DNA from: Natronolimnobius baerhuensis
GTDB taxonomy: Archaea > Halobacteriota > Halobacteria > Halobacteriales > Natrialbaceae
Length of the DNA: 64,000 bases
NCBI RefSeq assembly: GCF_002177135.1
Contig: NZ_MWPH01000003.1
Span: 124,001-188,000 of the forward strand
Direction: 5' to 3'
Part shown: one piece after another, positions 4,412 to 32,311 of the stretch
How positions within the stretch are numbered: position 1 is the first letter of the stretch
Layout of the letters: each line of letters begins with the position of its first letter
Program-made: the position numbers and the translations under genes
Notes under the pieces: generated by a model
The model's database searches: none
What the model was told of the DNA's origin: nothing
What the model saw: the letters and a program-made list of their open reading frames with translations, nothing else

Positions 4412-6946
4412 ATGAGTTCTGCCGTTGACGAGGACACCGTCCGCGCAGTTCACTCCGGACGGGAAACGCTCGGTGCAATCTTTTCGAGTGCGCAAACACA
4501 CCTGCAGAAGGTCTTTATCGTCTTCGTTATCGGCTTTATCGGCTCGTTTTACGCCCTTCGCATCTTCATCTGGGACTTCCTCGAGGCGACAGCGAAAGCG
4601 GAGATGGACCAGTACGTCGCCGATGCGACCTCCATTATTACGCGGACGCCGTTCGAAGTCATCCTCTTGCAGGCGAAAATCGGGATGCTCGTCGGTGTTC
4701 TCCTTGCGATTCCGGCGTTGCTGTACTATTCGCGCGGTGCGCTTCGCGAGCGCGGCATCGACTCTGTCGTGCCAGTCTCACGAACGTATCTGGCGGCACT
4801 CGTCCTGACGTCGGTGACGCTGTTCTGTATCGGCGTTACCTACGCGTACGCAGTCTTCTTTCCCTTTGCATTCGACTTCCTCGGGGCCGTTGCGTTCGAT
4901 GCTGGCGTGACGCCGAGTTGGGGTATTACTGAGTTTACCGAGTTCATTGCCCTGCTAACGCTGTCGTTCGGACTGGCGGCGCAACTGCCGCTGTTTATGA
5001 GCGTCCTCTCCTACACTGAGATCATCTCTTATGAGACCTTCCGCGATAAGTGGCGCCACGCAATCGTCGGAATCACTGTCTTCGGCGCGCTGTTCTCCCC
5101 GCCGGACCCGTTCACCCTGATCATGTGGACGCTGCCACTGGTTGCCCTCTATGCGTTCAGCCTTGGTCTCGCGAAAATCGTCGCCAACGTCCGCCGACGC
5201 GGCGCGGCCGAACTCGACGGCGGCACCGCCCTGATGAAACGGCGCGTCATCCAGTTCGTTGGGGTCCTCGGACTCACGACCACTGCAGTGTCGATCTATC
5301 TCAATCAGAACGGCCTCGAGCGCACGGAAGAACTCCTCTACCCACTGCTTCCGGCTGGGCTCCGACCAAGCAGCTCGCTCGAATTGAGCTTCGGCCTCGA
5401 GGCGCTTCCAGCCGAATACGGCCTGCTCGGTGACGTTGCCGTCGCGGGCATCATCGCCCTCGGACTCGGGCTGGTGTTGCTGGTCGGCTACATGGTCAAC
5501 ATCCTGCAGTCGCCGGTCTACCCACGGGAGGGCGACATTCGTGCGGCCGAAACCCCAGACGATATCGACTTCAACACGCTCGCAGTCGGCGATATCGAGG
5601 AGGTTCCAGCGCCGGTCTTCCTCGCGATGACCGAAGACGAGGCGATGGACTACGCCCGGCAGGCGATGTACGACGATAACCGGGAGAAAGCCCAGACCAT
5701 CATCGACCGCTTCGATACGCTGCACGAACAGCAGAAGACGGCCGACAACCCGGACGATGTCAACTTCGAGGCCCTCGACGCCGACGAGATCGGCGACCTC
5801 TCTGATTCGGTCTTCCTCGCAATGACCGAAGACGACGCCCTCGAGCACTCTCGGCAGGCCATGCACGACGAGAACCGCGCGAAAGCCGAGGCGATTCTCA
5901 ACCGCTTCGACGCACTCGAAGAGGAACGCGAGGAAGCCGACCTCGAGGATGTCAGCGGTGAAACGGCGGCCGCAGGCGATGCCGGCGACGGTGACGATGA
6001 CGACGGCAGCCTCTTCTCGAGTACCGCCGCGGGGATGCTCGATCCGTTCACTGAAGAGGAGACGACCGAAGACGACATCGGCGGCTATGCCTACGATCTG
6101 GCCTTTATTGTGGACAGCCTGACCTCGAAGACGATCTACATCGTCGGTGTGTTCATGGCCGTCCTCGGTGGGACGTTCCTCGCGATGTACCAGGGCGGAT
6201 TCGGAATCGTCCTCGAGCAGTTCGTTGATCGCGTGCCGCGGGACGTGCTGGATGAAGTCACCGAGGAGCCGCTTGGAACGGAGGATGTGACAACGGAGGT
6301 CCTCGGCGAACTCGGGTTAGTCATCGCCTTACACCCCGTTGAAGTGCTGATCTTCATGGTGAAGGTGAGTACGATCCTCGCGATCATCTCCGTGCTGCCG
6401 ATGATCCTCTATTGGGCGTGGCCCGCAGCCAGAGAGCGCGGCCTCGTCCGCGGTGACCCGCGCGTGTTCCTCGTCTGGGGTGGCACCATCTTCGCCGGCT
6501 TCGGGATGGGGCTGTTCCTTGGCTTCTACTGGATCGCGCCGACGGTCATCTCGTATCTCATCACTGACGCCCTCCGGAACCAGATGGAAGTCACCTATCG
6601 GATCAACAGCTTCTCGTGGCTCGTGATCTACACGACCATCGGCGTTGGCTTCCTCTTTAACATCATCGTCACGATGGCGATGTTCCACGTCGGCAAAATC
6701 GTCAACTACCGCACGATGCTCAAAGCGTGGCGGCCGGTCGTCGTCGGTATCTTCGTCGTCGCTGCAATCGCCAGCCCGAAGGGCATCCTGACGATGTTGC
6801 TCGTCGCCATCCCGATTGCGCTGACGTACATGCTCGGACTCGCTATTCTGTACGTCTTCACCGCAGGTGGCCGCCTGTTCGGTGGCGGCGGTGGCGGGAG
6901 CGCAACCGAGCCGGAGCCAGAGACGGACGCAACGGCGGCGAATTGA
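4412..6946 (+). CDS. tatCt: Double-domain Sec-independent translocase TatC (TatCt type)
   Basis: About 844 residues holding two complete TatC domains (roughly residues 25-290 and 560-830) joined by extra membrane helices and a long acidic linker, the 14-TM TatCt form specific to haloarchaea. I start at the ATG giving MSSAVDEDTVRA, which matches the usual N-terminus; an in-frame ATG at 4388 adds eight residues. The linker carries two tandem copies of a 65-residue unit (5555-5749 and 5750-5944) with the core VFLAMTEDxA...RQAMxDxNRxKA. A Gly-rich, Glu-rich tail closes the protein. It is divergent from tatC, and the two probably act together in Tat export. Confidence 0.93.
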   Translation: MSSAVDEDTVRAVHSGRETLGAIFSSAQTHLQKVFIVFVIGFIGSFYALRIFIWDFLEATAKAEMDQYVADATSIITRTPFEVILLQAKIGMLVGVLLAIPALLYYSRGALRERGIDSVVPVSRTYLAALVLTSVTLFCIGVTYAYAVFFPFAFDFLGAVAFDAGVTPSWGITEFTEFIALLTLSFGLAAQLPLFMSVLSYTEIISYETFRDKWRHAIVGITVFGALFSPPDPFTLIMWTLPLVALYAFSLGLAKIVANVRRRGAAELDGGTALMKRRVIQFVGVLGLTTTAVSIYLNQNGLERTEELLYPLLPAGLRPSSSLELSFGLEALPAEYGLLGDVAVAGIIALGLGLVLLVGYMVNILQSPVYPREGDIRAAETPDDIDFNTLAVGDIEEVPAPVFLAMTEDEAMDYARQAMYDDNREKAQTIIDRFDTLHEQQKTADNPDDVNFEALDADEIGDLSDSVFLAMTEDDALEHSRQAMHDENRAKAEAILNRFDALEEEREEADLEDVSGETAAAGDAGDGDDDDGSLFSSTAAGMLDPFTEEETTEDDIGGYAYDLAFIVDSLTSKTIYIVGVFMAVLGGTFLAMYQGGFGIVLEQFVDRVPRDVLDEVTEEPLGTEDVTTEVLGELGLVIALHPVEVLIFMVKVSTILAIISVLPMILYWAWPAARERGLVRGDPRVFLVWGGTIFAGFGMGLFLGFYWIAPTVISYLITDALRNQMEVTYRINSFSWLVIYTTIGVGFLFNIIVTMAMFHVGKIVNYRTMLKAWRPVVVGIFVVAAIASPKGILTMLLVAIPIALTYMLGLAILYVFTAGGRLFGGGGGGSATEPEPETDATAAN

Positions 6947-27094: not shown

Positions 27095-28288
27095 ATGAGT
27101 GACTCTCGAGCGTTCTGTCCGCGCTGTGGGGACCCCGTCCCCGAGCGAACGGACAGCGATGATTCAGCAGGTGAGGGCGGTGCACCAGATCCACTGCGAC
27201 CCGGTGCGGAGGTCGAACTCTGCGATTCGTGTTACTTCGACGACTTCGACTTTATCGACGCGCCGGATCGGATCGACGTGCAGGTCTGTGCCCGCTGTGG
27301 TGCGGTCCACAAAGGGAATCGGTGGGTCGATATCGGTGCCGAAGATTACACCGATATCGCCATCGAGAAAGTCAGCGAAGTGCTTTCCGTCCACGTCGAC
27401 GTCGACGACGTCGCCTGGCAGGTCGAGCCGGAACAGGTCGGCGAGAACACGATCCGGATGTACGCCTACTTCACGGGCGTCGTCCGCGATACGCCCGTCG
27501 AAGAGCAGGTGATGATTCCCGTCAAAATCGCCCGCCAGACCTGCCAGCGCTGTGGCCGGATCGCTGGCGACTACTACGCGAGCATCGTCCAGATACGCGC
27601 CGAAGACCGGACGCCGACGAGCGAAGAACTCGAGCGTGCAAAAGAGATTGCCCACCAGACGGTCGCGGATATGGAGGCGACGGGCGACCGCAATGCCTTC
27701 GTCACGGAAATCAGCGAGGACGCAGACGGGCTGAATATCAGGGTCTCGACCAACAAAATCGGCAAGAAAATTTCGAACAAGATGATCGAGGAATTCGGCG
27801 GCTCCGTCAACGACGCCGAAACGCTCGTCACCGAAGACGAAGACGGCAACGAGGTCTACCGCGTCACCTTCGCCGTCCGCCTCCCACCCTATATTCCCGG
27901 CGATATCATCGACCTCACCGACGACGGCGGCCCCGTGCTCGTCCGCAGCGCCCACGGCAACCTCAAAGGCACCCGCATCACGACGGGCGACCGCTACGAA
28001 GCGAGCTACGAGGAGGGGAACTCACCCGAAGCGCGCAGACTCGGCCGACTCGAGGACGGCGAGAAAACGACGGTCGTCACCGTCGAAGACGACAACGCCG
28101 TCCAGGTGCTCGACCCCGAAACGTTTCAGGCGACGACGGTCGCGCGCCCAGAGTATTTCGAGCCTGATGCCGAGACAGTGCCCGTCCTGAAGAGTCGCGC
28201 CGGGCTGCACGTTCTCCCGGATCCGGACCCCGACACCGGCGAGGAGAATCCAGCGCCCTACGATCCCTACTCCCACACCGATGCCTGA
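27095..28288 (+). CDS. nmd3: NMD3-family ribosome biogenesis protein
   Basis: This 397-residue protein has an N-terminal set of CxxC zinc pairs (FCPRCGDPV, LCDSCYF, VCARCGAVHKG, TCQRCGRIAGDYYAS), as in Nmd3, the large-subunit biogenesis and export adaptor of eukaryotes. In archaea it is taken to act in 50S maturation. The middle part (NKIGKKISNKMIEEFGGSV) and the beta-rich C-terminus follow the family. The start MSDSRAFCPRCG lies 28 bases behind a TTTAAC box (27064-27069). The 3' end overlaps taw2 by 8 bases, so both genes act in RNA or ribosome maturation from one transcript. Confidence 0.92.
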   Translation: MSDSRAFCPRCGDPVPERTDSDDSAGEGGAPDPLRPGAEVELCDSCYFDDFDFIDAPDRIDVQVCARCGAVHKGNRWVDIGAEDYTDIAIEKVSEVLSVHVDVDDVAWQVEPEQVGENTIRMYAYFTGVVRDTPVEEQVMIPVKIARQTCQRCGRIAGDYYASIVQIRAEDRTPTSEELERAKEIAHQTVADMEATGDRNAFVTEISEDADGLNIRVSTNKIGKKISNKMIEEFGGSVNDAETLVTEDEDGNEVYRVTFAVRLPPYIPGDIIDLTDDGGPVLVRSAHGNLKGTRITTGDRYEASYEEGNSPEARRLGRLEDGEKTTVVTVEDDNAVQVLDPETFQATTVARPEYFEPDAETVPVLKSRAGLHVLPDPDPDTGEENPAPYDPYSHTDA

Positions 28289-29435
28289 GGAGTTCGACGA
28301 CGTTCCCGGTCTCGAGGCAGCCGATGCCCCGCTTGCAGTCATCGTCGAAAAACAGCGGACCGAAACCGCAATCGAGTCGCTGCGAGCCGAAGGCGTCTAC
28401 GACGACTCGCGGCGCGTCCGGACGGACCGCGGCGAAGCCGGACGCGAAGAGCCCGATGAACCTGAGCGAATCGCGCTTCCGGTCACCGAACCGCCGACGG
28501 GAACGCGCGTGCTCGAGGTCGTGCGCCAGTTCGACCCCGAGTTTCGGACGACGGATCTCGCGGACGTGCTCGCCGAACGCGGCTGGAGCGAGGCCGAAAT
28601 CGAGACGGCCCCGAGTTCGTGGGCGGTCATCGGCTCGGTGATCCTCGTGACGATGCCAGCCGAGTGTCCGGACGAGACCGCCGTCGCGGAGGCGCTCCTC
28701 GAGATTCACGGCGAGGCAGACAGCGTGTTGGCAGACGAGGGAATCGCAAATACCGGCGAGGCGGGAACCCATCGTGAGCCACGGACGCGACTGCTCGCAG
28801 GCGAGTCAGACACTGAAACGATCCACGCAGAACACGGCACTCGGTACGGACTCGACCCTGCGAAAGTCATGTTTTCGCCGGGGAACCAAGCCGAACGCGC
28901 GCGGATGGGCGACGCTGTCAGCGGCGACGAGCACGTCTTCGATATGTTCGCCGGAATCGGCTACTTCACCCTCCCGATGGCTCGTGCCGGCGCGCGAGTC
29001 AGTGCGACCGAGATCAACCCCACTGCCTTTCGCTATCTGCTCGAGAACGCCGTGCTCAACGACGTCAGCGACCGCGTCGAGGCCTACATGTCCGACTGCA
29101 GGGATCTTGCGAGTGAGATCGACGCCGACCGCGTCGTGATGGGCTACTACGGCAGTTCGGCGAGCGCCGACAACAGTGAAAACGCAGACAGCACAGCCTC
29201 GCGTGCGAACGAAGCCCACGAGTTCCTGCCCGCCGCACTCGAGGCACTCGTCCCCGGCGGCGTCGTCCACTACCACGAGGCAACACCGGAGTCACGGCTC
29301 TGGGACCGGCCGCTCGAGCGCCTCGAGCGCGCGTCGGACACGGCCGAGAGCGACCTCGAGATTCTCGAGAAACGACGAGTGAAAAGCCACAGTGCAGGGG
29401 TGGCTCACGTCGTAGTCGACGTGCGCTTCGAGTAA
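28281..29435 (+). CDS. taw2: tRNA wybutosine-pathway aminocarboxypropyltransferase Taw2 (Trm5-like fold)
   Basis: This 384-residue enzyme is of the Trm5/Taw2 group. The SAM-binding site is VFDMFAGIGYFTLPMA, with acid NP in ATEINPTAF. Motif IV reads DRVVMGYYG rather than the N-P-P/N-L-P of the Trm5 m1G37 methyltransferases. The hydrophobic MGY form points to Taw2, which transfers the 3-amino-3-carboxypropyl group of SAM to 4-demethylwyosine at tRNA-Phe position 37. The N-terminal D1/D2 region carries an Arg/Glu-rich linker. It is coupled to nmd3 by an 8-base overlap. Trm5 remains the alternative. Confidence 0.82.
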   Translation: MPEEFDDVPGLEAADAPLAVIVEKQRTETAIESLRAEGVYDDSRRVRTDRGEAGREEPDEPERIALPVTEPPTGTRVLEVVRQFDPEFRTTDLADVLAERGWSEAEIETAPSSWAVIGSVILVTMPAECPDETAVAEALLEIHGEADSVLADEGIANTGEAGTHREPRTRLLAGESDTETIHAEHGTRYGLDPAKVMFSPGNQAERARMGDAVSGDEHVFDMFAGIGYFTLPMARAGARVSATEINPTAFRYLLENAVLNDVSDRVEAYMSDCRDLASEIDADRVVMGYYGSSASADNSENADSTASRANEAHEFLPAALEALVPGGVVHYHEATPESRLWDRPLERLERASDTAESDLEILEKRRVKSHSAGVAHVVVDVRFE

Positions 29436-29645: not shown

Positions 29646-31532
29646 CTATCGTTCCGTATCCCAGACGTCCGCAAGCGGCGAGGAGTCGGAGGATCGACCG
29701 CGCCGTGAGCGACGAGATCGGCTGGTCGACGACCCCGACCCTGTACTCGAGGTGGAACCACCGGAGTCGGTCGAGCCGGACGAGCGGGTGCGGCCGCCGC
29801 CGGTCGCGTTCGAACCCGAACTCGAGGATCGACCACTATGACCCCCACCAGAAAGCGCCGCACGCGGCTCGAACGGCGGCAACTCGGGTGTGCTCATCCG
29901 GTCGACCTGCGCTTCGAACCAGTCGGGCATGTCCGTCTGTGCACGGTCGAACAGGTCGACCAGACTCGAGTCGGCGATATACGTCGAGCCGTAGTCCTCG
30001 GGCGCGCGAATCACCCGGCCGCAGGCCTGGATGACGGTTCGCAGAGACGAGCGGTAGTACCACGCCCACTGGCCCTCCTCGAGTCGGTGGGCGACTCTCG
30101 AGTCACCCGTGTTGAGAAACGGCGCTTTACAGAGGACCTGCCAGCGACAGAGATCGCCTTTCAGGTCGAGCGCTTCCTCCATTTTCACGGAGATGAAGAC
30201 GTCTGGGTCGTCACAGGCTTTCCACTCCTCTAGGTCGGCGTCGCGGCTATCCCGGTCGTGGACGCGGATGCGCTCGCCGACGCCGAAATCCCGGAGGAGA
30301 TCGGCCAGTTGCTCCTGAATCGCGTAGGAGTGTGCGTGGATCAACCCCTTCTCGTCGGGGTGTTCCTGCATGATGCGGACGATAGTGCGTGCGATTTTCG
30401 GCGTGGTGTCGTCGCGGTGCTCGTAGGTCATCTTCCCCTGTGTCACGTCGTACAGCGGGCGATTTTCGACGGGGAAGGTGTGGGAAACGTCGACCAGTGC
30501 GACGTCGTCCGGGGTGAGTCCGACCTGCCGACAGAACGCTGCCTTGTTCAAAATCGTCGCCGAGAGGAGTGCGAACTTGTTCCCGCGGTCCCAGACCGTA
30601 TGCTGGAGGTACTTCTCGGGATTCATCGGCTTGATCGTCAGCGGCCCGCCCGCCGGCTCGTCACTGTCATTGTTCTCGCGGGTGCTCGCCGACGGCTCGG
30701 ACTGATCGACCAGCCACGTCGTCGGACTCTGTGGATCACGATAATCCGAGACGAACCACTCGAGTTCGCCGATCAGTTCCTGTAAGCGGTCGCGTTCGCG
30801 CACCTCCGCGGGGGAAAACGCCTCCTGGGCGAGCAGGTCGTCCTTGCGCCGTTCGCACGTGCTCGCGAGGTTCTCCGCGTAGCGCACGGCGCGGTCGATG
30901 CCCTCGTCCTCGAGGTCGGGAACGCGAAGATCCTCCCAGAACGGGACCGTTCGCGGGCCTAACTGGATCGTCGCGTACATTTCGGCCCATTCGGCAAGGC
31001 CGTGGGCCTCGTCGACGACGACCACGTCACGTTTGCGAAACACCTCGCTGCCCGCGGTCTGCATAAAGTACGCGAGCGTCATCGCCGCAATCGACCGATT
31101 CGAGGCAATTGCGCGGTCGGAAAAGTACGGACAACGGTGTTTGACGGAACAGTCGTAGCCCCGTTCGCGGACGCAGGGAGCCTGATTGACCGGCGTATTG
31201 CGCTCTTCGGGGAGAATGCAGGTGTAGTTCGATTTCCCGCGGATCACGTTGAGATCGGCCAGTAGGTCGTCGGAGGCAACGTCGTCTAACTGCGAGACCT
31301 GTGGCGTCGTGTAGTACGCGCCCGAGGCCTCGACCGGGTCGGCCTCATCAATTGTGCGCGCACAGCCCGCGATTGCTCGTGCGAGCAGCGACTTTCCGCT
31401 GCCGGTCGGCGCGCGCACTAACACGACATCGTTGCCGGCCGCGAAGGCGTCACGAATGTCACGGAGGGCCTGCTCCTGATTCCCGCGATAGCTCGGCGCG
31501 GGAAACGACTCGAAGATCCGCTCGGGGTTCAC
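29646..31532 (-). CDS. Rad3/XPD/DinG-type ATP-dependent DNA helicase with Fe-S cluster
   Basis: This 628-residue superfamily-2 helicase has Walker A VRAPTGSGKS, Walker B/DEAH VVVDEAHGLAEW and motif VI QACGRVIRAPEDYG. Four cysteines between motifs I and II (YTCILPEE, APCVRERGYDC, RCPYF) form the [4Fe-4S] site of XPD/DinG helicases, which move 5' to 3' on DNA. The last 70 residues are a Ser/Gly/Arg low-complexity tail. Homologues act in excision repair or R-loop and replication-fork processing. It stands alone, leftward from a 533-base gene-free, structured region. Confidence 0.92.
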   Translation of the reverse strand: MNPERIFESFPAPSYRGNQEQALRDIRDAFAAGNDVVLVRAPTGSGKSLLARAIAGCARTIDEADPVEASGAYYTTPQVSQLDDVASDDLLADLNVIRGKSNYTCILPEERNTPVNQAPCVRERGYDCSVKHRCPYFSDRAIASNRSIAAMTLAYFMQTAGSEVFRKRDVVVVDEAHGLAEWAEMYATIQLGPRTVPFWEDLRVPDLEDEGIDRAVRYAENLASTCERRKDDLLAQEAFSPAEVRERDRLQELIGELEWFVSDYRDPQSPTTWLVDQSEPSASTRENNDSDEPAGGPLTIKPMNPEKYLQHTVWDRGNKFALLSATILNKAAFCRQVGLTPDDVALVDVSHTFPVENRPLYDVTQGKMTYEHRDDTTPKIARTIVRIMQEHPDEKGLIHAHSYAIQEQLADLLRDFGVGERIRVHDRDSRDADLEEWKACDDPDVFISVKMEEALDLKGDLCRWQVLCKAPFLNTGDSRVAHRLEEGQWAWYYRSSLRTVIQACGRVIRAPEDYGSTYIADSSLVDLFDRAQTDMPDWFEAQVDRMSTPELPPFEPRAALSGGGHSGRSSSSGSNATGGGRTRSSGSTDSGGSTSSTGSGSSTSRSRRSRRGRSSDSSPLADVWDTER

Positions 31533-31701
31533 CGTTCACTCCACCGACCGGCGGCTTCCTAAAGGCTACGAACCGTCTCCGAGAGTGACCTGGAATGGCC
31601 CGGCCTCGAGTGTCGATTCCGGGGGAGAAATCACCTGCTACCGAGAATCAGGGAGGGCATCACAGTACACAGGTGGCGGCTACCGGCGGGTAACTGGCTG
31701 A

Positions 31702-31710
31702 TTACAAATA
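31702..31710 (+). promoter_or_regulatory. Candidate TATA box before the tRNA-like element
   Basis: TTACAAATA is centred about 31 bases before the first base of the tRNA-like fold at 31737, an acceptable archaeal spacing. It is the only AT-rich stretch in this part of the gap. Confidence 0.35.
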
Positions 31711-31736
31711 CGAAACCCGCCATCAGGAATCAATGT

Positions 31737-31824
31737 GGAAGGGTCGCTCAGCGGTAGAGCACCGCGGTGCCATCTGGCCCGCGGCGGCCTCACAGCCTCG
31801 TGGCGTTCAAATCCCACCCCTTCC
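31737..31824 (+). other. tRNA-like fold (non-canonical or degenerate tRNA)
   Basis: An 88-base stretch folds like a tRNA. The 7-bp acceptor is perfect (GGAAGGG 31737-31743 with CCCTTCC 31818-31824). The 4-bp D stem is perfect (GCTC/GAGC, loop AGCGGTA), and a TTCAAAT T-loop is at 31806-31812. Three things are wrong for a normal tRNA. The anticodon arm is a closed hairpin (CCGCGG-T-GCC-ATCT-GGC-CCGCGG) with no 7-base loop. A 15-base variable arm contains GGC/GCC. The T stem (GTGG/CCAC) has a bulged C. No anticodon can be assigned. It may be a pseudo-tRNA, a tRNA-mimic domain of a longer RNA, or an undescribed element. Confidence 0.5.
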
Positions 31825-32042
31825 GCTTGCGGTCTGCGGCTTTCGGTCCCGCACCGGCTGCGGGCACCGTCATGGTTGTGATTGTGGTTGTGGTCGCGAT
31901 GCGGTCGCAGTGACAGTATCACAGCACGCAACACGCTCCATCGTGGCTCCCCATCACGATGCTGTGATACGGGGCGGACTCCCCACCGCCCCAGTTCATG
32001 GTCAGGTTCCAGCGGTCGTCACCGCCCACCACGAATTTTTTT
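31825..32042 (+). ncRNA. Candidate structured non-coding RNA downstream of the tRNA-like fold
   Basis: The rest of this gene-free gap is dense in hairpins: CCCGCA/TGCGGG (31848-31864), an 11-bp perfect inverted repeat GTATCACAGCA/TGCTGTGATAC (31916-31926, 31960-31970) enclosing ATCGTG/CACGAT, then GGGGCGG/CCGCCCC (31971-31992). A run of seven T at 32036-32042 could end a plus-strand transcript. With the tRNA-like part, the transcript would be about 306 bases. I saw no C/D, H/ACA, SRP or RNase P signatures. Transcription is unproven. Confidence 0.35.
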
Positions 32043-32065
32043 GAGAGTCACCCGGACAGCGCCGT

Positions 32066-32311
32066 CTACAACGCGCCCACGCGAGAGGTCTCTCCGTCCA
32101 CCTGCTCGAGTCGGTCGACGTCTTCGGCCGTCGGATTATCCGGCAGCGCCTCGATACAGGGGTAACAGAGCAGGTGCTCCGTGCCGTCCTCGAACTCGAG
32201 GGTCATCGCGGTGCCGTCGCTGCCGTCGTTCTCGCCGAACGTCCAGATGTTGGCGATGCCGCCGGCAACTGAGACCGTTCGACCGCAGCCGTCACAGGAG
32301 GTCTTACCCAT
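32066..32311 (-). CDS. Small zinc-ribbon-like protein, haloarchaeal family
   Basis: This 81-residue protein begins MGKTSCDGCGRTVSVAGG, giving a CxxC knuckle, and carries a second CxxC (LLCYPCIEAL) about 40 residues later. Together they form one zinc site around a beta-hairpin (MTLEFEDGTEHLL). The C-terminus is acidic. This layout matches a small halophile-only family, perhaps DUF7561 by memory. The function is unknown; zinc-ribbon proteins of this size often bind nucleic acid or protein partners. It is a single gene, divergent from the YkgJ-type gene. Confidence 0.75.
   Translation of the reverse strand: MGKTSCDGCGRTVSVAGGIANIWTFGENDGSDGTAMTLEFEDGTEHLLCYPCIEALPDNPTAEDVDRLEQVDGETSRVGAL

Follow-up and report, generated by a model that had tools for sequence, protein, structure and literature searches.

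A conserved anticodon-less tRNA-like RNA gene of haloarchaea

The window, a 64,000-nucleotide stretch of Natronolimnobius baerhuensis DNA, carries a non-coding RNA gene of haloarchaea in which the anticodon loop is replaced by a closed hairpin and whose product cannot decode. We are highly confident that this feature is a conserved, stand-alone, anticodon-less tRNA-like RNA. The RNA probably does another job with the tRNA machinery, and we propose that it is an L-shaped tRNA mimic matured like a tRNA and acting as an off-ribosome decoy. That statement as a whole stands at even chances in our judgment, and the decoy mechanism taken alone at slightly less than even. The features on which the analysis draws are as follows.

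31737..31825, + strand: anticodon-less tRNA-like RNA gene, 89 nt counting the discriminator-position G (from fold and conservation)
31737..31743, + strand: acceptor stem, 5' strand GGAAGGG, invariant across 29 aligned sequences
31818..31824, + strand: acceptor stem, 3' strand CCCTTCC, read from sequence and alignment
31746..31760, + strand: D arm GCTC AGCGGTA GAGC, a perfect 4-bp stem and the loop AGCGGTA with a G18G19-type GG
31762..31784, + strand: closed hairpin replacing the anticodon arm, 9 bp and a 4-nt loop; five of nine pairs changed on both sides among 29 sequences
31785..31799, + strand: variable arm of 15 nt with an inner GGC/GCC stem; two of four modelled pairs changed on both sides
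31800..31817, + strand: T arm GTGG-C-G TTCAAAT CCCAC with a bulged C at 31804, a 6-nt 5' strand facing a 5-nt 3' strand
31701..31711, + strand: TATA-like box ATTACAAATAC, at -36 to -26; strong conservation upstream of 83 C-bulge copies and in a 30-locus alignment
31681..31692, + strand: inverted repeat TACC-GGCG-GGTA, a candidate operator-like element about 10 bp upstream of the TATA-like box
29646..31532, - strand: DinG/XPD-like helicase gene (Pfam Helicase_C_2, DEAD_2), divergent neighbour and synteny marker outside the RNA
32066..32311, - strand: DUF7561 small protein gene (Pfam), convergent neighbour and synteny marker

Structure and detection of the RNA

An earlier note on this DNA had described perfect acceptor and D stems with a normal TTCAAAT T loop, together with a closed 9-bp hairpin, a 15-nt variable arm and a bulged T stem, and direct reading and folding of the RNA bore out each of these. 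All seven acceptor pairs form between 31737-31743 and 31818-31824, and the hairpin at 31762-31784 folds as 6 bp, one bulged T, 3 bp and the 4-nt loop ATCT. The extent given there, 31737-31824, held for the start and the stems; its end lies one base further, at 31825, if the G that directly follows the acceptor and occupies the discriminator position is counted. The 533-base gap free of genes was recovered at 31533-32065, and the TATA-like box that had been placed upstream is the element listed above. The fold energy was -43.6 kcal/mol; 200 dinucleotide shuffles gave -32.0 ± 3.2 (z = -3.66), and not one of them equalled the RNA. A chance origin of the fold is excluded because it is conserved across genomes.

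The 7-bp acceptor, the D arm and the T arm with its TTCRANY loop are features of the tRNA family (RF00005). In a search of 534 bases, the Rfam tRNA model matched the RNA from end to end at 34.2 bits (E = 1.9e-5; gathering score 29). The same model gave 42 tRNA matches in this genome at 44.0 to 71.3 bits; the RNA locus is not among them and scores below every one. When the 64-kb window was scanned as a whole, the fast Rfam filters lost the match, which may be why routine annotation overlooks the family. ARAGORN at default settings called neither a tRNA nor a tmRNA at the RNA, and at lowered thresholds its output was inconsistent, either '???' or Gln(ctg) with a 4-nt intron; it was likewise inconsistent on diverged copies. 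The RNA has no Rfam family of its own and is recognised there only as a weak tRNA.

The RNA was undescribed in the portions of open-licence papers covered by a literature search, and the main texts of three Haloferax transcriptome papers made no mention of the locus under sdhA or tRNA-like terms. An excerpt of the H. volcanii genome paper lists only rRNAs, RNase P RNA, 7S RNA, 51 tRNAs and one C/D box RNA.

Selection on structure and distribution among haloarchaea

Selection on the structure was evident in an alignment of 29 sequences hand-picked to span the matches, in which 97.4% of the cells were paired and eight pairs had changed on both sides, five of them in the hairpin at the position of the anticodon arm. 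The covariation score was 0.122, compared with 0.066 in shuffles; none of 500 shuffles scored as high, and slid controls were clearly lower. Acceptor, D arm and T arm hardly change, and the hairpin varies in sequence and length yet keeps its pairing. In the 30-locus alignment, for example, GCC/GGC is swapped to GGC/GCC in one copy (L012) or GTCA/TGAC in another (L022), and the hairpin is longer by several bases in two more (L018 and L021).

Folding the isolated middle part of the distinct RNAs, which gave no value for one of 166, yielded hairpin stems of 3 to 17 bp. The apical loop had 3 to 6 nt in 141 of the 165 RNAs, 7 nt in 8 and 8 to 15 nt in 16, and several of the larger loops were found by eye in family f4. 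Because so many of the loops have 3 to 6 nt, a 7-nt anticodon loop is not being maintained; the would-be anticodon is fixed neither in size nor in sequence.

The second constant departure from a decoding tRNA lies in the T stem, where six bases face five (CCCRC) in 181 of 181 distinct entries, always leaving one unpaired pyrimidine. These entries consist of the RNA with 20 nt upstream, form a set different from the 181 genomes described below, and were collected with a pattern that left the 5' strand of the T stem free. That strand reads GCGTGG in 95, GTGGCG in 83 and GTGTGG in 3. The uninterrupted 5-bp T stem of a decoding tRNA did not occur, with exceptions only among the GAAAGGG relatives. 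The base after the acceptor was G in 136 entries, A in 44 and C in 1, a variation that fits a role independent of any single synthetase.

A 471-base DNA query found the RNA in 55 of 100 relatives: in the window's family 49 of the 61 genomes matched, and beyond it 6 of the other 39. For most species of other genera, the match spans only the promoter and the RNA (query position 72 onward, i.e., 31671 onward). An exact pattern with both RNA ends fixed and the middle free, so that the acceptor sequence is built in and its constancy is partly by design, detected the RNA in 181 of the 391 haloarchaeal genomes searched, spread over 44 of 86 genera, and a reversed-pattern control gave 0. By this pattern, genomes hold one copy as a rule and at times two. 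In a sample of the phylum, it matched 24 of 294 genomes, all haloarchaeal, and none of the 241 from other classes. At least 120 stretches matched in a named collection, and the matches listed include Haloferax, Haloarcula, Natrialba, Natrinema, Natronococcus, Halorussus, Halorientalis, Halobellus and Halostella and one unplaced 'Euryarchaeota archaeon'; Haloferax is represented there by five species other than H. volcanii.

Mobile DNA was also searched. Viral contigs gave no exact-pattern match and the phage collection none at E 0.01, and a viral origin of the RNA was rejected on these grounds. A single plasmid record, from Halorientalis sp. IM1011 (NZ_CP019069.1), includes a copy. On this and one other plasmid-sized contig (L143 and L144), a short U-bulge copy lies about 0.4 to 0.5 kb upstream of a gene that by eye is putatively Orc1/Cdc6-like.

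The remaining 210 of the 391 genomes gave no exact match. A looser model, R2, was run on 80 genomes, 78 chosen for absence of the exact pattern and two as positive controls, and it matched in 38, including both controls. R2 also catches true tRNAs: of 14 loci inspected, nine were anticodon-less tRNA-like and five were ordinary tRNAs. Two of the nine have the acceptor GGTAGGG and two have GAAAGGG with no T-stem bulge; the remainder are of GGAAGGG type, four of them damaged and one long. The damage consists of loss of the D arm (L311 and L312), a D-loop deletion (L305) or an acceptor mismatch (L306), and besides GGTAGGG and GAAAGGG one acceptor reads GGAAGTG. Relatives of the RNA thus diverge, and in some lineages the RNA is lost or decaying. 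It is dispensable in many lineages, since 210 of 391 genomes are without an exact match and degenerate copies exist. The GAAAGGG copies (L309/L160 and L310) look like a second anticodon-less kind, with an unbulged T stem and a tRNA-Gly (ARAGORN) directly after.

These data bear on the remaining claims of the earlier note. Its judgment that the fold is too ordered for decay agrees with retention in 181 of 391 genomes and with a hairpin held closed by compensatory changes. It had named absence of conservation in relatives as grounds against the feature; the sequence is conserved, within the family and across the class, at the counts given above. The other ground it named, identity with an intron-containing tRNA, did not apply either, as the hairpin loop sequence varies and leaves no constant anticodon. 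We also found, as it had stated, that no isotype can be assigned, the nearest tRNA differing between copies. When 51 copies were compared with the tRNAs of the window's genome, the closest was Lys for 18, Ala for 12, Leu for 6, Ser for 6, Arg for 4, Asn for 4 and Gly for 1; one match of model R1 (L163), a true tRNA-Ser, had been removed before the isotype and neighbour counts. Tracing the RNA back to one isotype gave no consistent ancestor over the 51 copies.

Lineages, neighbours and promoter

The copies fall into two lineages according to the bulged T-stem base, which is either U or C. The C-bulge form, to which the window copy belongs, sits at the window's locus in 81 of 83 cases, 76 of them by the DinG-like helicase gene and 5 by DUF7561 where the helicase match failed. 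Among the 98 U-bulge copies, 57 follow sdhA, which encodes the succinate dehydrogenase flavoprotein by Pfam, at a distance of up to 1.5 kb and in the same orientation; 38 lie elsewhere and 3 come without upstream sequence; a small MarR/TrmB-like gene is often next (12 loci). Both forms at times occur in one genome (G082, G131, G151 and G288). We infer that the sdhA-linked site is ancestral, since it is seen in several families, including two genera of the window's family (L175 and L176). The DinG and sdhA contexts have no gene in common, and the neighbours give no functional clue.

In the window, both flanking genes are on the strand opposite to the RNA, one running away from it and the other towards it, and the RNA is therefore not part of an mRNA. 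With the next genes on the other strand on both sides, the window copy is stand-alone, and probably a regulated gene. The sequence TACCN4GGTA occurs once on the given strand of the window. Across the C-bulge loci, TAC(C)N3-6GGTA was present at -60 to -31 in 49 of 83, compared with 0.34 expected from shuffles; it was absent from all 98 U-bulge loci and from 44 upstream regions of this genome's tRNAs. The tRNA genes of the genome have an AT-rich peak at a distance equal to that of the TATA-like box, and so, less pronounced, do the U-bulge copies.

Three further observations concern the surroundings of the RNA. Upstream of the RNA and just past the helicase gene, the window holds genes for NMD3 and a TRM5/TYW2-type tRNA methyltransferase (27095-29435), an order kept in many genomes and possibly just a coincidental tRNA/ribosome context. 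At a single second C-bulge copy (L040), the adjoining gene at about 5350-6390 is by eye a putative FemAB-like transferase, a class able to use aminoacyl-tRNA. Finally, tandem imperfect palindromes of about 100 to 130 bp follow the RNA at a number of loci (L069, 5211-5340; also L051, L171, L167, L169, L150, L177, L053, L178, L055, L151 and L175). They open on the T arm in reverse complement and finish by repeating the 3' end of the RNA, as if an element inserted at that end and re-created it, and their antisense reading gives spurious '..GFEP..' frames.

Proposed function and alternatives

The existence of the gene, its conservation, its structure with covariation, its conserved promoter and its synteny were observed directly. 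The RNA retains all that is recognised by elbow-binding proteins, the CCA enzyme, RNase P and tRNase Z, has lost the anticodon and has gained a bulge, a combination suggesting an RNA that is produced and processed in the way of a tRNA yet stands outside decoding. As we picture it, the RNA would be transcribed from its own TATA promoter, with a regulator acting on the TACC-N4-GGTA repeat probable in the window's family. RNase P and tRNase Z would then trim it and CCA would be added, a tRNA-like maturation that we propose from the retention of the acceptor/T-arm helix and of the D-loop/T-loop elbow. The closed hairpin would block codon reading, and the obligatory T-stem bulge would keep the RNA off aEF1A, which holds the T stem of tRNA and whose binding a bulge there would be expected to weaken, judging from tRNA biochemistry. 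Acting off the ribosome, the RNA would occupy or titrate an enzyme that recognises the acceptor/T-arm/elbow half, i.e., it would be a regulatory tRNA decoy. Our analysis found no partner protein, and the frozen acceptor might also point to aminoacylation, against a decoy role.

Aminoacylation is the basis of the main alternative, in which an amino acid, most plausibly serine, is loaded onto the RNA and passed on to a non-ribosomal reaction. Seryl-tRNA synthetase (SerRS) ignores the anticodon and reads the variable arm. Besides the frozen acceptor, the C-bulge form shows a class II-like variable arm that includes a stem, and a G after the acceptor, and the best non-self match of model R1 in the window's genome was tRNA-Ser(TGA), at 51.8 bits. 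However, the base after the acceptor may be G, A or C, which makes a donor less likely than a decoy; a clear variable stem is absent from most U-bulge copies; and the nearest isotype differs from copy to copy. Cyclodipeptide synthase (PF16715) was found in none of 50 genomes, with no match in the control genomes either, which leaves this absence uninformative. We consider such an amino-acid donor possible but rather doubtful. A dedicated carrier, charged by an anticodon-ignoring synthetase, barred from the ribosome by the T-stem bulge and serving solely as an amino-acid donor or as an amino-acid/charging sensor tied to central metabolism (ancestrally beside succinate dehydrogenase), appears unlikely.

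A slightly less favoured reading takes the RNA as the by-product of an mRNA 3'-end processing signal in the style of the 5S t-element or MALAT1 mascRNA. The 57 U-bulge copies that closely follow sdhA in its own orientation are consistent with it, and an excerpt of PMC4326828 describes a tRNA-like element upstream of the 5S rRNA in H. volcanii that is a substrate of, and is cut by, tRNase Z. Like that t-element, our RNA has a tRNA-like fold in a haloarchaeon and would presumably be processed by RNase P and tRNase Z. The t-element, however, is joined to 5S rRNA as a signal for processing, whereas no rRNA was found in the 64-kb window at Rfam gathering scores, and the window RNA has its own promoter and a DinG-like helicase and DUF7561 as neighbours. 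The window form stands alone between divergent and convergent genes, with a conserved promoter and inverted repeat of its own, and the 38 U-bulge copies located elsewhere also speak against a signal for sdhA mRNA. Hölzle 2012 reportedly predicted 47 further tRNA-like elements in H. volcanii, and a copy of the RNA in that species, if any, may be among them. In mammals, mascRNA and MEN-beta RNA are tRNA-like RNAs cut from long non-coding RNAs and have no decoding function; the RNA shares this non-decoding, tRNA-like nature, but the window-type gene is stand-alone, with no longer same-strand transcript unit around it in the window.

Less probable still is a scaffold RNA of a ribonucleoprotein, resembling YrlA/Y RNAs, with the variable hairpin as a tether. 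Bacterial YrlA/Y RNAs combine a tRNA-like domain with an extra hairpin, as does our RNA, whose hairpin ranges from a few to 17 bp with pairing retained, and they need a Ro/TROVE partner. Ro/TROVE (PF05731), however, was found in 2 of 25 genomes with the RNA and 5 of 25 without it, showing no correlation over the 50 genomes, and it is missing from the window's genome. tmRNA likewise has its anticodon arm replaced and keeps the T and acceptor arms, but it carries a tag reading frame and a resume codon; the RNA has neither and, at 89 nt, is far too short. Compared with the tRNAs of RF00005, the acceptor, D and T arms are alike; the anticodon loop is absent and a T-stem bulge is invariant. For t-elements, Y RNAs and tmRNA, the RNA thus fails a tested defining feature of each.

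That the RNA is an ordinary tRNA carrying a small intron, or a tRNA pseudogene in decay, is very improbable: the low-threshold ARAGORN proposal and the Rfam score favour it, but the would-be anticodon varies by species, compensatory changes keep the hairpin closed, there is no 7-nt loop, folds inspected by eye have no bulge-helix-bulge, and the RNA has a long vertical history at one locus. Ordinary and split tRNAs were rejected by covariation, loop sizes and the inconstant hairpin sequence, and so was an intron-containing tRNA, unless splicing were to yield a constant anticodon in a loop of 7 nt. Equally improbable is an integration target kept by mobile elements and not for its RNA product, as the palindromic repeats re-creating the 3' end downstream of several copies might suggest, since the 5' half, D arm, promoter and hairpin pairing, all needless for an integration site, are also conserved and the window copy has no such repeats.

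Non-decoding tRNA-like RNAs are known mostly within larger RNAs or as viral mimics. The gene described here has been overlooked by current annotation, being missed by ARAGORN and seen as a weak tRNA in Rfam. It opens questions of charging without decoding, titration of tRNA enzymes and new ribonucleoproteins. As a class-wide, stand-alone and vertically inherited RNA in genetically tractable archaea, it offers a system for studying the non-anticodon half of tRNA outside translation.
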